From Chitinophagales bacterium (GTDB lineage: Bacteria > Bacteroidota > Bacteroidia > Chitinophagales > Chitinophagaceae), in the NCBI GenBank assembly GCA_026931325.1, contig JAIXLO010000009.1, forward strand, positions 1 through 48,536: 48,536 nucleotides of DNA, read 5' to 3'. The translations under genes were made by a program, and so were the position numbers. Positions 16,297 through 21,532 of this stretch are shown in pieces. The first letter of the stretch is position 1. Every line of letters begins with the position of its first letter. The notes beneath the pieces are model-generated. The model was given only the letters and a program-made list of their open reading frames with translations, did no database searches and had not been told where the DNA came from.

Positions 16297-18880
16297 TTGT
16301 TAAAGTATATAATATTTATTTTTTGTATTTTTTTTAGTTATCCATCTTTAATAGCACAACAAGTTGTAATTCAGGGGATGGTAAAAGATACAACTAATAA
16401 ACCTATAGTTGGAGCATCGGTAATATTAAGGGCAAATGATAGTAATGGAATAATAAAGTATTATAAAATAACAGACGAAAATGGAATTTTTAAAATAACC
16501 ATTTCAAATATTAATCAACAATTATTTTTTCAAATTTCCTCTGTAGGTTTTGTTACTTATTCAGAGCATCTTACCAATCCTCTAATTTCTCTCAATAAAA
16601 TTTTTACACTTCAATCATATTTAGGAAATTTACCTGAGGTTTTTATAAAAGATAATCCTGATATCATAAAAAAGAATGACACTACAACATACATGGTAGC
16701 AGCTTTTGAAAGAGGAAATGAAAATAATATTGGAGATTTGCTTAAAAACTTGCCTGGTATAATTGTTACAGATAATGGTAAAGTAATTTTTAATGGGAAA
16801 ATGATAGATAGGGTTTTGATTGAAGATGATGATATTTTTGGAAATAACTATGCAGCATTAATAAAAAATGTTAGCACCAATGGTTTAGATAAAATAGATA
16901 TTATAGAGCATTATAATGATAGGTCAAAAATAGAAAATAGTAAGAAAGAAAAAGGTAACGAAACTGTACTTAATTTGAGGTATAAAAAAAAGAAATTAAG
17001 GTTATATAGTAGCATTAATTCAGCAGGTGGTTATTCTATTGAAAATTATGAAGTTAAAGCAGATATTGTAAGTCTTATTCCTAATGCAAAATTTGTATCT
17101 ACTGCAAATATGAATAGCTTGGGGACAACAGGAAGTTATTTATTAGGGAGAGAAAATAATTTGAATTTATTTGAAAACTACAATGAAGAGCCTATAACAA
17201 AAGTTGCAACAGTATCAAATCCTGTGAATTTTCATGATATAACACCAAATAATATTTCTACATCAAGGGCACTCTTTAATACAAGTAAATTTATTACAAT
17301 TAACAGTCAGTTAAAGGTCAGTAAAAAAATTATGGTAAAAGAATCTGTATCAATAATTGCAGACGATTATACACAAAGTAAAAAAACAATAGAAGTATTT
17401 AATAATCCATTACAACCATTAGTTATAGAAGAAGATGAAAAATTGGTAAAAAATAATAAACAATTTGATGTTGCTTTAGAAGCATCATGGTTGCCAAATG
17501 CAAAATTTCAATCAGTTTTAAAATACAATATAAGTTCTATTAATGCTACACATCAAAATAATGGCTTTTTATTTCAAAGCCCATTTTTTCAAAATTTGTA
17601 TCTAAAAGCCAAAAATCATCAACTTACTTTGAAAAATACAAAACTTATAACAGAAAAATCTTTATCAACCTTATGATGCACAAGAAGCTACAACTTTAAC
17701 TTAGGTATGATATGATTTTTATTCAGAAATATAGAAAATCTTTACAATTAACAGGTGTTCAAGATAATTATAAAATAAATAGTGAAGTTTTTCTTTATAA
17801 TAAAGAAAATAATTTGCAACTTACCAAGCACATATAATAATACCATTTTAATTTAACTAAAATAACATTCAGTTCAGTATGAACATTGTTTTTAATGATA
17901 GATGAAAACTGGGAATTTCACAATGGTCTGGACCAAGAAATGAGCAGCAAGTATTTAATAATATAATAACTGATAATAAATTACAATTACTGCCATCATT
18001 TAATTTTGAATATAGAATTAATAATGATAAGAGTTTATATCTCTATTTTCAGACACAGCCAATTTTCCCTCAAGTATATAGTTTAGGAAAATCTTATGTT
18101 TTTACAGGTCTTAACAGTATAGTTAAAGGAAGTAATGATTTGAAAATTTCAAGAGGCTTTACTTCAAGTATTTCTTACCATTATTTTGGTTCGGTAACGA
18201 AAAAAAGCATTTTTACAGTTTATTTATCTGTTAGTAATAATGCTATTAACTATCTTCAAAATTTAACCAATAGAGGGTTATATAGTTTTACATCTTTTGA
18301 AACAGCAAATGAAAAAAATTTATTTACAAATTGCTTTATTAAAGCAGAGCAAAAAATTGCAGAAAGTAAATCATGGCTAATTTTTACTACAAATGTATCT
18401 ATGTACAAAACATATAGCTTAGTAAATTATCAAAAAAATACCAATTATGGAAACTCTATTAAAACAGAATTAAGATGGAAAACTGATTGGAAAAAATGGT
18501 TTAATATCAATACTGGTATTATTTATAGCTATCAAACCTTAAATACATTTTCCAAGAGTATCAAAATAAATACCTTTTTTTCAAAAGTTCTAACATCTAA
18601 CACAGTCATAGGCTTTAAGTTTTTCAAAAAATTAAATGCAGATATATTAGTAGATTATCTTTTAAATAAATCTGATAATAAAGAAGTTAAACAAATCATT
18701 TTTACAGATGCACAGGTTATCTATAATGTAAGCAAAAGAATAAAATTTGGGGTAATAGCAAAAAATTTTTTTAATCAAAAAGAATTTATGCTTAATCAGT
18801 TTAATTCATTACAAAACACTATTAGCTATTTTAATCTTCAACCAGCATTTTACTTACTAACTTTTGGTATAAAACTTTAG
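16297..18880 (+). pseudogene. Decayed TonB-receptor-like outer-membrane barrel protein
   Basis: The first part (16297-17676, opening at TTG with no in-frame ATG nearby) encodes a signal peptide, a carboxypeptidase-regulatory-like domain (VVIQGMVKDTTNKPIVGASV) and a plug-like region (NIGDLLKNLPGIIVTDNGKV). It ends at a TGA at 17674. Homologous-looking sequence continues in other frames: LYQPYDAQEATT from 17660, YDMIFIQKYRKSLQLTGVQD from 17706, and a long C-terminal barrel from 17906 to 18880. At least three frameshifts and several stops are therefore present. An intact version would be roughly 850 residues and the partner of the GLPGLI protein. The accumulation of lesions argues for real decay. 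Confidence 0.75.
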
Positions 18881-18887
18881 TATTATT

Positions 18888-19586
18888 CTATTTCACAACT
18901 CCATTATTATTCCAATCTCTTCCAAAAACCTTTTGTAGTGTAGGGCTTGTTCTGGCTTCTGCTTTTGTTCTTATAGCTACTTCTTGTTCAGCTATTTTAT
19001 TAAACATGGCATTGGTTACAACACCTGCTAATAAATTATCCAAATTCAAATTAAGTTTTACTTTATCGCCTAAAACCATTTTTGCAGGAGCTACTAATTT
19101 GTCCCATTCTTTGGTTACATTATATTGGTCTAAGGCAGTTTTCATAATTGGTGTTACAGTTGTTCTAAGTTCTGTGCCAATAGTATTTCTAAAATAATCT
19201 GTTGCTGCTGTTCCGCCATTTTTTACAATATTTAATGCATCAGTAATATTCATTCTTTTAATACCACTTACAAAAACTGGTATTGAATTAGTAGCTGTTT
19301 GAGAAGCAGCAGTTGTAAGAGTGTTGGTAAATTTATCAATATCCTTACTCAATCCAAGTTGTTGCAATCTTTGTAAAACAGTATTTACATCTTTAGGTAA
19401 AATAGCACTCATTAAAGCATCTTTACTAATTAAGGCATTGCCATTACTGCCAATAGTCAATAATTCTTTTATGCCACTTATAGCATCTTGCTCTGTTAAA
19501 ACATTGCTGGCAATTTTTTGTATTGTATCGCAACTACTAAACATCATTCCAAAACTAATTAGCAGTATTAATGTTATACGCTTCAT
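18888..19586 (-). CDS. DUF4197 family lipoprotein
   Basis: The N-terminus is a lipoprotein signal peptide with Cys19 as the lipidation site (MKRITLILLISFGMMFSSCD). The rest matches the DUF4197 pattern: EQDAISGIKELLTIG, ILPKDVNTVLQRLQQLGLSKDIDKFTNTLTTAA, MNITDALNIVKNG, ATDYFRNTIGTELR, and the ending LQKVFGRDW. The domain is widespread in proteobacteria and Bacteroidota, and its function is unknown. The length of 232 aa is typical. It is tail-to-tail with the decayed barrel gene, 7 bases apart, and looks intact. Confidence 0.88.
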   Translation of the reverse strand: MKRITLILLISFGMMFSSCDTIQKIASNVLTEQDAISGIKELLTIGSNGNALISKDALMSAILPKDVNTVLQRLQQLGLSKDIDKFTNTLTTAASQTATNSIPVFVSGIKRMNITDALNIVKNGGTAATDYFRNTIGTELRTTVTPIMKTALDQYNVTKEWDKLVAPAKMVLGDKVKLNLNLDNLLAGVVTNAMFNKIAEQEVAIRTKAEARTSPTLQKVFGRDWNNNGVVK

Positions 19587-19672: not shown

Positions 19673-20542
19673 TTATTGCTTTTTAGCAATTAACTTACCC
19701 GAATACTTTTTATCAATAGCTAATAAAATAAAGGGTTTAGTAGTATATGTTTGTTTTTCTCCAACCTTTGTTGAGTAGTTTAAAATTATATTATTACCAG
19801 CATCTAACATTAGATTTGATAATTGAATTGTTGTATTTTTAGTTGTTTCATTTAAAATAATAGTAACAACCGTTTGTTTTGAAAAATCAATTTTGGTTGG
19901 CTTACCATTTTTTCCCATTACTGTTGCAGCACCAAAAAATTTATCAAACTCATTTTGAGATGTTATTTTAAATGCTCCTTGTTGCTTAACATTATTTTTT
20001 ACAAAATAATTATTAAGTGTAGTATAATTTATTTTATTTACAGATGATGTTTCTTTTGTTGATGCTTCCTTTGCATGATACAATTTACTATCAGCTTTAA
20101 AAATTTTATACTTTATAACAAAGTCATTTGGTACATATAATACAATTGGTAGTTTACTATTGTATCTTAATAATAATGGTTGTAGATAAACAAATTTGTT
20201 AGTCAACTTTTCTTGTGGACAAGCCATTTTTGTTCCCCCCATTTCTCCTGAAGATTCTATCTCATAAAAGTTATAACCCCAACCATCTAAATTTTTTTCA
20301 GTTATATTTCCTATTAAAAAATATTTATTACAATCGAGCAATGCTTCTTTACCAACAAAAACTTCTACTTTAAAATTTTCTTCATTTTTTTCAATAGGCA
20401 CTTGTATATACACTTTTTTAAAACCTTCCTTAGCTTCAGGAAACATATTAATTTCTAATTTTTCGTATTTCATTTGTTGAGCATAAACATTTACACAAAC
20501 TAACATTAATAAACTTACAATAATTTTTTTTGTTTTTATCAT
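19673..20542 (-). CDS. Secreted ecotin-type protease inhibitor fused to a PrcB-like C-terminal domain
   Basis: Residues 1-21 are a Sec signal peptide. Residues about 24-155 align motif by motif with ecotin, the periplasmic inhibitor of trypsin-fold serine proteases: LDCNKYF, LDGWGYNFYE, the reactive loop TKMACP at 104-109, and RYNSKLPIVLYVPND at 126-140. The disulfide cysteines are kept (C71, C108). The residue at the P1 position is Lys105 where E. coli ecotin has Met, implying preference for trypsin-like proteases. Residues about 166-289 form an extra domain (INYTTLNNYF... KIDFSKQTVVTIIL...) resembling the C-terminal domain of PrcB, a subunit of the Treponema dentilisin protease complex. Ordinary ecotin ends near residue 160. 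Confidence 0.85.
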   Translation of the reverse strand: MIKTKKIIVSLLMLVCVNVYAQQMKYEKLEINMFPEAKEGFKKVYIQVPIEKNEENFKVEVFVGKEALLDCNKYFLIGNITEKNLDGWGYNFYEIESSGEMGGTKMACPQEKLTNKFVYLQPLLLRYNSKLPIVLYVPNDFVIKYKIFKADSKLYHAKEASTKETSSVNKINYTTLNNYFVKNNVKQQGAFKITSQNEFDKFFGAATVMGKNGKPTKIDFSKQTVVTIILNETTKNTTIQLSNLMLDAGNNIILNYSTKVGEKQTYTTKPFILLAIDKKYSGKLIAKKQ

Positions 20543-20629: not shown

Positions 20630-21532
20630 TTATGCTTTTGGATGTGCTTTTTTGTAAATATCTTTTAACTGCTCAATAGTGTTATGAGTATAAACTTGTG
20701 TAGCTGCAAGACTACTATGACCAAGCAATTCTTTTACTGCATTAAGGTCTGCACCATTGTTCATTAAATGCGTAGCAAAACTATGACGTAAAATATGAGG
20801 GCTTCTTTTTTGAACTGTTGTTACTAATGACAAATATTTTTTCACAAAACCATATACTTGTCTTGGATTAAGAGTTTTACCTTTTTCTGTAATAAACAGT
20901 TGTGGCAAGTGTTTCAACTCTTCTGGCTTTAATGAAATATAATTTTTTATTTCATTCATCAACTCTTTAGAAATTGGAATTATACGTTCTTTATTTCCTT
21001 TACCAATTACTTTTATTTGTTGATAATAAATATCAATATACTCTTGTTTTAGCTGAATTAATTCACTTAAACGAATACCTGTATTATAAAATAATTCTAA
21101 TACTAATTTTTCTGTTTTGCCTTTCCAATCATCTGTAAATTCAACATGTTCAAGCAAAGTGTGTATATTATCTTCTTGAACAAAAACAGGTAATCTTTTA
21201 TTTATTTTAGGAGATATTATTGTTGTCATTGGCGACTTTGTAATAGCTTCTTTTTTAAGATGAAATTTAAAAAAAGATTTTAGGGCAGAAATTTTTCTGT
21301 TCAAAGTTTTGGCTGTAAGGTTTTCATCTCCTTTTAATGTAGCTAACCAACTTCTTATCATCATAGCATTGATGGCAGTAATAGAGGGATTTTCATAGTT
21401 TGTATTGATGAAAGAAAAAAATTGTTCTAAATCGTTTTGATAGGCAATCAGTGTGTGAGCAGAATATCGTTTCTCAAACTTTAAATAGTTGAGAAAACTT
21501 TGTAGAAAGATATTTGGCTCAGTTGTTTGCAT
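20630..21532 (-). CDS. xerC: Tyrosine recombinase XerC/XerD
   Basis: This is a site-specific tyrosine recombinase of the type that resolves chromosome dimers at dif. The N-terminal SAM-like DNA-binding domain (FLNYLKFEKRYSAHTLIAYQ) is followed by the catalytic domain with all six residues: R154 (TGIRLSEL), K178 (VIGKGNKER), H246 and R249 (HILRHSFATHL), H272 (LLGHSS) and Y281 (TQVYTH). The length of 300 aa is normal for a housekeeping Xer protein, not a phage integrase. rpsU lies just upstream but a hairpin separates them. XerC versus XerD cannot be decided here. Confidence 0.92.
   Translation of the reverse strand: MQTTEPNIFLQSFLNYLKFEKRYSAHTLIAYQNDLEQFFSFINTNYENPSITAINAMMIRSWLATLKGDENLTAKTLNRKISALKSFFKFHLKKEAITKSPMTTIISPKINKRLPVFVQEDNIHTLLEHVEFTDDWKGKTEKLVLELFYNTGIRLSELIQLKQEYIDIYYQQIKVIGKGNKERIIPISKELMNEIKNYISLKPEELKHLPQLFITEKGKTLNPRQVYGFVKKYLSLVTTVQKRSPHILRHSFATHLMNNGADLNAVKELLGHSSLAATQVYTHNTIEQLKDIYKKAHPKA

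Follow-up and report, generated by a model that had tools for sequence, protein, structure and literature searches.

Bacterial ecotins are usually described as single-domain protease inhibitors, and the question raised by one gene of a Chitinophagales bacterium (Chitinophagaceae; GenBank assembly GCA_026931325.1) is why an ecotin should continue into a second domain and what that domain may do. The gene lies in a stretch of 48,536 nucleotides of contig JAIXLO010000009.1; this whole stretch is called the window here. A preliminary description from the sequence had proposed an ecotin fused to a domain resembling PrcB, a subunit of the Treponema dentilisin protease complex. The protein has a two-domain anatomy that is conserved in two species, and its C-terminal domain (CTD) shows remote kinship with PrcB. 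The ecotin/CTD fusion is confirmed: known domains have been rearranged here in a way that is genuine but rare. The E-values and a second genome carrying the fusion at 60% identity exclude chance. As to its role, we give about even chances to a working dimeric ecotin with a partner-binding CTD that would keep the inhibitor near the cell surface.

The signal peptide and the ecotin landmarks listed in the preliminary description (the C71/C108 pair, the TKMACP loop and RYNSKLPIV) were borne out by a match to PF03974 (E 1.7e-38; score 131.7 bits, cut-off 22.2; profile positions 2-122 of 122) and by alignment with the ecotin of E. coli K-12, at 35% identity. In this alignment Cys71 and Cys108 fall on both E. 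coli cysteines, the reactive loop GTKMAC faces STMMAC, K105 (within EMGGTKMACPQEK) stands on the E. coli P1 methionine, Met106 is P1', and RYNSKLPIV is kept, RYNSKLP being the secondary-site stretch. All 17 PDB sequences matched by the ecotin half at E<=0.01 are ecotins or ecotin-like, the solved E. coli ecotins included. E. coli ecotin (MEROPS I11) shares with the window protein the signal peptide, one Cys pair, the P1/P1' loop and the RYNSKLP stretch, whereas the window protein has Lys for Met at P1, an extra CTD of ~122 residues and a Bacteroidota host.

The same domain order was found in one congener, the public metagenome-assembled genome (MAG) KLAP28 (G008; contig CAUJDL010000012.1), where the identity extends over residues 1-289. 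An artefact of assembly or gene calling that joined two neighbouring genes might have been suspected in a draft genome of 182 contigs; the same uninterrupted fusion in another species and another assembly refutes it, and its probability is practically nil. Identical positions number 12/22 in the signal, 87/128 in the ecotin part and 71/122 in the CTD (for the linker, see Table 1). Both fusions score below the cut-off of 162 bits of NF002987, the equivalog model of stand-alone ecotin (152.5 for the window protein, 160 for KLAP28). The window protein has cysteines at positions 16, 71 and 108, and its signal looks, by eye, to be of the soluble type; a canonical lipobox is not present, Val preceding Cys16, and the KLAP28 fusion has no cysteine there.

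Both halves are under purifying selection. Between the two copies, Nei-Gojobori estimates of nonsynonymous (dN) and synonymous (dS) divergence, which are rough with dS near 1, were 0.21 and 0.96 for the ecotin half (dN/dS ~0.22) and 0.32 and 1.16 for the CTD half (dN/dS ~0.27). In trees built by a quick method the fusion copies are sisters both by ecotin (SH-aLRT 97, 21 rows) and by CTD (99, 43 rows), and therefore a single fusion event is likely behind them. Alternatively, the fusion could make no functional difference: the ecotin would be an ordinary one, and its passenger domain would add stability or size but no new activity. Its occurrence in two genomes only, the patchiness of ecotin in the family and the unrelated extensions on other ecotins (see below) would suit such a passenger, but the CTD is constrained and largely retained while the linker drifted, and the conserved stretches of its stand-alone relatives (NYFVKN and FGxAxxMGxxGxPTxxDF) are intact in the window CTD, so that we consider neutrality rather unlikely.

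Lys105 at P1 had been read in the preliminary description as predicting trypsin-like targets. This is reasonable, and the residue would be compatible with such targets; the M84R variant of E. coli ecotin gains 17- to 7000-fold in affinity for three trypsin-like MASPs (PMC9136129). Lysine is, however, no feature of the fusion, because KLAP28 has Met at P1 and because, of 21 ecotins compared, those of E. coli and the window among them, 6 have Lys, 8 Met, 3 Leu, 2 Gln and 2 Arg; as a key feature of the fusion it was ruled out. Possible targets within the window genome comprise one PF00089 match, a frame of 371 residues that may be HtrA-like, judged by size only, and two S46 matches. Across ten genomes of the genus, S46 matches number 1 to 3 per genome.

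Ecotin was found in 11/394 genomes of the family, 9/396 of the order and 3/395 of the class; these samples overlap and the window genome is counted in all three. Within the genus, ecotin matches occurred in 3/10 genomes, as the two fusions and one stand-alone ecotin (G006), and the CTD in 2/10, as fusion only, the fusion being present only in the window genome and KLAP28. No further ecotin-CTD fusion was present among the loci fetched, and viral contigs gave no match to the fusion. Among phages, one unannotated Salmonella phage record of 1676 bases matched residues 31-157. The plasmid search gave 23 records, 22 of them matching the ecotin half (Proteobacteria) and one the CTD half (Prevotella), and none of the 23 covered 80% of the fusion. 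Bacteroidetes ecotins have been described as horizontally acquired (PMC9904509). Other ecotins of the family bear unrelated extensions, N-terminal in G284 and G323 and as a C-terminal tail in G157, and ecotin therefore appears to tolerate additions at either end. The N-terminal extensions (L018 in G284, L021 in G323) are ~100 residues long, and L018 has no other Pfam match.

The extra C-terminal residues, noted earlier for the pattern KIDFSKQTVVTIIL...TTKPFILLAI, proved real, and this pattern aligns with PrcB-family proteins. A scan of a genome collection of 84,980 species with the most conserved CTD peptides found 48 loci, namely the KLAP28 fusion and 47 stand-alone genes; being pattern-based it reaches closer relatives only, and the count is a lower bound. 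The record titles name Bacteroidota for 47 loci and merely 'bacterium' for L032. When 395 genomes of the phylum were searched by profile, the CTD turned up in 6, among them the window genome. A lipobox-like cysteine is present in 44 of the 47 stand-alone proteins (in 41 a loose pattern detects it, in 3 it was recognised by eye) and the remaining 3 look like soluble exports; the stand-alone CTDs are predicted to be mostly lipoproteins, anchored in the membrane. Examples from Olivibacter domesticus (L030), Flavobacterium (L031) and Chryseobacterium (L053) share 32-47% identity with the window CTD in the best segment, with the same conserved stretches, and differ from it in being separate proteins and in this cysteine. 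There is no Pfam model for the CTD. An alignment (A3) of the window protein and 42 of the 48 loci (L036, L060, L061, L063, L068 and L074 omitted as redundant) gave no match to PF14343 at E<=1 in any of its 43 rows, the window protein included, and 10 Pfam families were matched, each by one or two rows. The fusion thus offers a first handle on a lipoprotein family that lacks a Pfam model.

Four stand-alone CTD lines carry extra C-terminal parts (L048, L068, L069 and L071). In a Prevotellaceae MAG, the CTD lipoprotein is fused to a pyridoxamine 5'-phosphate oxidase-like domain (L048:2875-3780); the part was not recognised in L068, L069 and L071, L069 having no Pfam match. The 15 largest groups of CTD neighbours viewed reflect mostly Chryseobacterium/Epilithonimonas synteny or frames antisense to other genes. 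More distant relatives are spanned by a group of 6 loci, whose lead member is a large frame in L032, and by a group of 4 (L042, L053, L062, L063), and a conserved neighbour of the stand-alone CTD genes is possible. Another group of 4 has an RND-type frame (L035, L036, L039, L074), three of the four with identical DNA. In L035, L036 and L074, whose records are titled Pedobacter nanyangensis, Chryseobacterium ureilyticum and Sphingobacterium alimentarium, 6342 bases holding the CTD lipoprotein gene and the RND-type efflux-like gene (named by eye) are 100% identical, by either very recent transfer or shared contamination.

The PrcB-like nature of the C-terminus, as claimed in the preliminary description, held as remote homology and failed as PF14343 membership. 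For comparison, 18 PF14343 proteins were collected from 15 of 148 genomes of the phylum. Profile-profile alignment by hhalign of the CTD family with all 18 gave 97.0% over 99 columns; a separate alignment (A4) of 16 of them, without L091 and L092, which were kept in the 18-protein profile, gave 96.3% over 94 columns, and so did the comparison made without the two fused rows (96.3%). In the controls, 100 column shuffles reached <=5.0% and unrelated families (the ecotin alignment and XerC profiles) <=0.9%, after a first set in which reversed profiles and ten column shuffles reached <=0.2% and single-sequence ecotin 0.5%. Hidden Markov model (HMM) searches of 5355 frames matched in both directions: the PrcB model found the window protein at 1.2e-6 and the CTD loci L024, L037, L052, L065 and L068 at E<=1e-4, without reaching 1e-4 on the KLAP28 fusion, and the CTD model found three PF14343 proteins at 4.8e-7 to 6.5e-6. 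The NCBIfam model denti_PrcB (NF033596) matched the window CTD with 19.8 bits (E 5.6e-4), under its cut-off of 125, and was the sole NCBIfam model matched by more than one CTD row (13/43 at E<=1, best 5.6e-4). At E<=0.1 the dentilisin PrcB model recognises every one of the 16 PF14343 proteins of A4, and the chain from the window CTD through the CTD family and PF14343 to PrcB is therefore tied computationally.

These comparisons support the CTD as a remote homologue of PrcB, outside PF14343 and NF033596 membership, and we infer a fold common to both. If the CTD were instead unrelated to PrcB and the similarity came from shared beta-strand composition, the missing PF14343 match at E<=1 and the lack of a convincing solved structure by sequence would be explained; the distance between the hhalign values and those of shuffles and unrelated families, the reciprocal HMM matches and the place of denti_PrcB as best and most frequent NCBIfam family make this very unlikely. 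PDB sequence matches of the CTD at E<=5 comprised four entries, Tako8 at 6.9e-5 and 7.1e-5 (no stretch passing alone), myelin P2 protein at 0.21 and internalin-J at 0.34, and all were taken as chance. PF14343 members had no PDB match by sequence at E<=1.

The fusion protein would be exported and would consist of an ecotin with a disulfide bond, followed at the C-terminus by a second folded module. Like E. coli ecotin, the ecotin half would dimerise and trap proteases of the S1 family (trypsin fold) that come from outside the cell. Since the ecotin dimer contact lies at the C-terminal strand, just before the linker, a CTD would project from the end of each protomer, giving two CTDs per dimer. 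The CTD might bind a partner in the cell envelope and so hold the inhibitor at or near the surface; ecotin with its soluble-type signal would have replaced the lipoprotein signal, leaving the CTD as a holder of the inhibitor that is not lipid-anchored itself. An ecotin dimer engages two proteases, using primary and secondary sites (PMC9904509; PMC9136129). The localising role is proposed by analogy with PrcB of the dentilisin complex, which interacts with PrtP, is needed for PrtP expression and has been proposed to contribute to the anchoring and stability of the complex at the outer membrane (PMC8167434). Such a protein would suggest that the cell surface, and not just the periplasm that they fill, may be a place for inhibitors. 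It would also give the PrcB superfamily, known mainly from work on a single protease complex of an oral spirochete, a second setting connected with proteases.

The kinship with PrcB, which interacts with PrtP, would also allow a two-headed regulator, in which ecotin blocks S1 proteases while the CTD attaches to a different protease, perhaps one of the cell itself, and either steadies or blocks it. That we hold this to be unlikely reflects the remoteness of the homology and the missing [SG]GY stretch (see below), the partner of PrcB, a subtilisin-family protease and not an S1 enzyme (PMC8167434), and the gene neighbourhoods: no prcA, prtP or other protease gene lies beside the fusion, its direct neighbours being the XerC/D recombinase and DUF4197 genes, and no S1- or S46-type protease gene was found by model search beside the CTD genes examined, although the models, for which 6 trypsin-family and 4 S46 proteins of the genus were used, could fail to detect distant ones.

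A stand-alone ecotin also stands next to a stand-alone CTD gene in one genome. In an uncultured Dysgonomonas (L064), the ecotin (frame 1495-2004) lies directly upstream of a CTD lipoprotein gene on the same strand (frame 2114-2626, ATG near 2147); the CTD protein of this locus had no plasmid records. If a genome is taken to have 3,500 genes, and given ecotin in 2/394 other Bacteroidia genomes, a direct ecotin neighbour among 47 CTD loci would be expected about once in 7,000 such surveys, an estimate made post hoc that does not allow for ecotin being perhaps commoner in the Dysgonomonas lineage. In the trees neither L064 half is sister to its fused counterparts, though with weak support, and this pairing is likely independent of the fusion. 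The adjacency is a hint at functional pairing of ecotin and CTD. On the boldest reading, ecotin and CTD would truly work as a pair in Bacteroidota, one being a protease inhibitor that can diffuse and the other a PrcB-like module at the surface by which it is held or guided, the two lying adjacent in L064 and fused in the window's genus; we regard this as decidedly unlikely. If true, it would make the PrcB-like lipoprotein family a general surface docking module for Bacteroidota proteases and inhibitors.

Several results count against the surface-holding role and the pairing, the above absence of protease genes beside the CTD genes among them. The gap between ecotin and CTD in L064 holds a terminator-like hairpin with a T-run (-16.1 kcal/mol, z -5.6), and the two are therefore probably separate transcripts. 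Of the 47 stand-alone CTD loci, covered with flanks of up to 3 kb, only 1 has an ecotin nearby; the flanks of L037 and L052, the two remaining CTD loci from Dysgonomonas, contain none. Conversely, no CTD was found around the other ecotin genes (0/17, flanks up to ~8 kb each side, some limited by contig ends); these 17 neighbourhoods come from 18 further ecotin genomes, G1013 being omitted as borderline (22.2 bits and an internal stop). The CTD has no counterpart of the [SG]GY stretch, which is typical of the aligned proteins at the beginning of their PF14343 region; its absence may explain the missing Pfam match. The window protein resembles PrcB in its profile over 94-99 columns and in export, and differs in standing under both curated cut-offs and in having neither [SG]GY nor a lipobox nor a protease neighbour.

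The fusion does not appear as a well-described ecotin subfamily, a result that would have spoken against the preliminary description: in the collection of papers searched, none joined 'ecotin' with 'PrcB' and none was by title on such a fusion, nor did the phrase 'PrcB family protein' occur. An ecotin that continues into a C-terminal domain has been published from Leishmania, ISP3 (PMC9904509), and no relatives of that domain were known at the time (PMC2659362). It differs from the window protein in that L. major ISP3 is a 41.8 kDa eukaryotic protein.

Table 1. Positions of the fusion gene, its parts and its direct neighbours in the window
Feature	Position	Strand	Remarks
Whole gene	19673..20542	-	Exported ecotin/PrcB-like fusion of 289 aa; ATG start, 289 aa + stop
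Export signal, residues 1-22	20477..20542	-	End near VNVYA/QQ judged by eye; aligns with E. coli ecotin signal
Ecotin domain, residues 31-150	20093..20452	-	PF03974
Cys71, expected disulfide partner of Cys108	20330..20332	-	Alignment with E. coli ecotin
Cys108	20219..20221	-	Alignment with E. coli ecotin
Lys105, P1 residue of reactive loop	20228..20230	-	Met in E. coli and KLAP28 fusion
Linker, residues 151-167	20042..20092	-	2/17 positions identical in KLAP28 fusion
CTD, residues 168-289	19676..20041	-	Bacteroidota CTD family, remote PrcB relative
Upstream neighbour, XerC/D-type tyrosine recombinase	20630..21532	-	Adjoins fusion in both fusion genomes
Downstream neighbour, DUF4197 gene	18888..19586	-	

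The gene order upstream of the fusion, a ribosomal protein S21-like gene (named by eye) followed by the XerC/D-type gene, is kept in 10/10 genomes of the genus. The slot downstream of the XerC/D-type gene holds the fusion in 2 of them, an S46 peptidase in 2 (G002 and G006) and other or unclear genes in 6. The S46 peptidase-type genes (L104 in G006, L105 in G002) stand behind xerC, where the window genome has the ecotin fusion. Folding of the leader that separates xerC from the fusion is no stronger than that of shuffled sequences (z -0.64). A scan for promoters and terminators gave 25 promoter-like sites, against 16.5 (standard deviation 3.2) in shuffles of this AT-rich DNA and with a consensus not derived from Bacteroidota, and 2 terminator-like sites against 1.0, too uncertain in AT-rich DNA for any inference. 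On the plus strand of the window, a gene with a CarboxypepD-regulatory-like start (16297-18880) looks decayed; only 16297-17676 and 18140-18880 can be read, and each of the three frames has stops in the part between.
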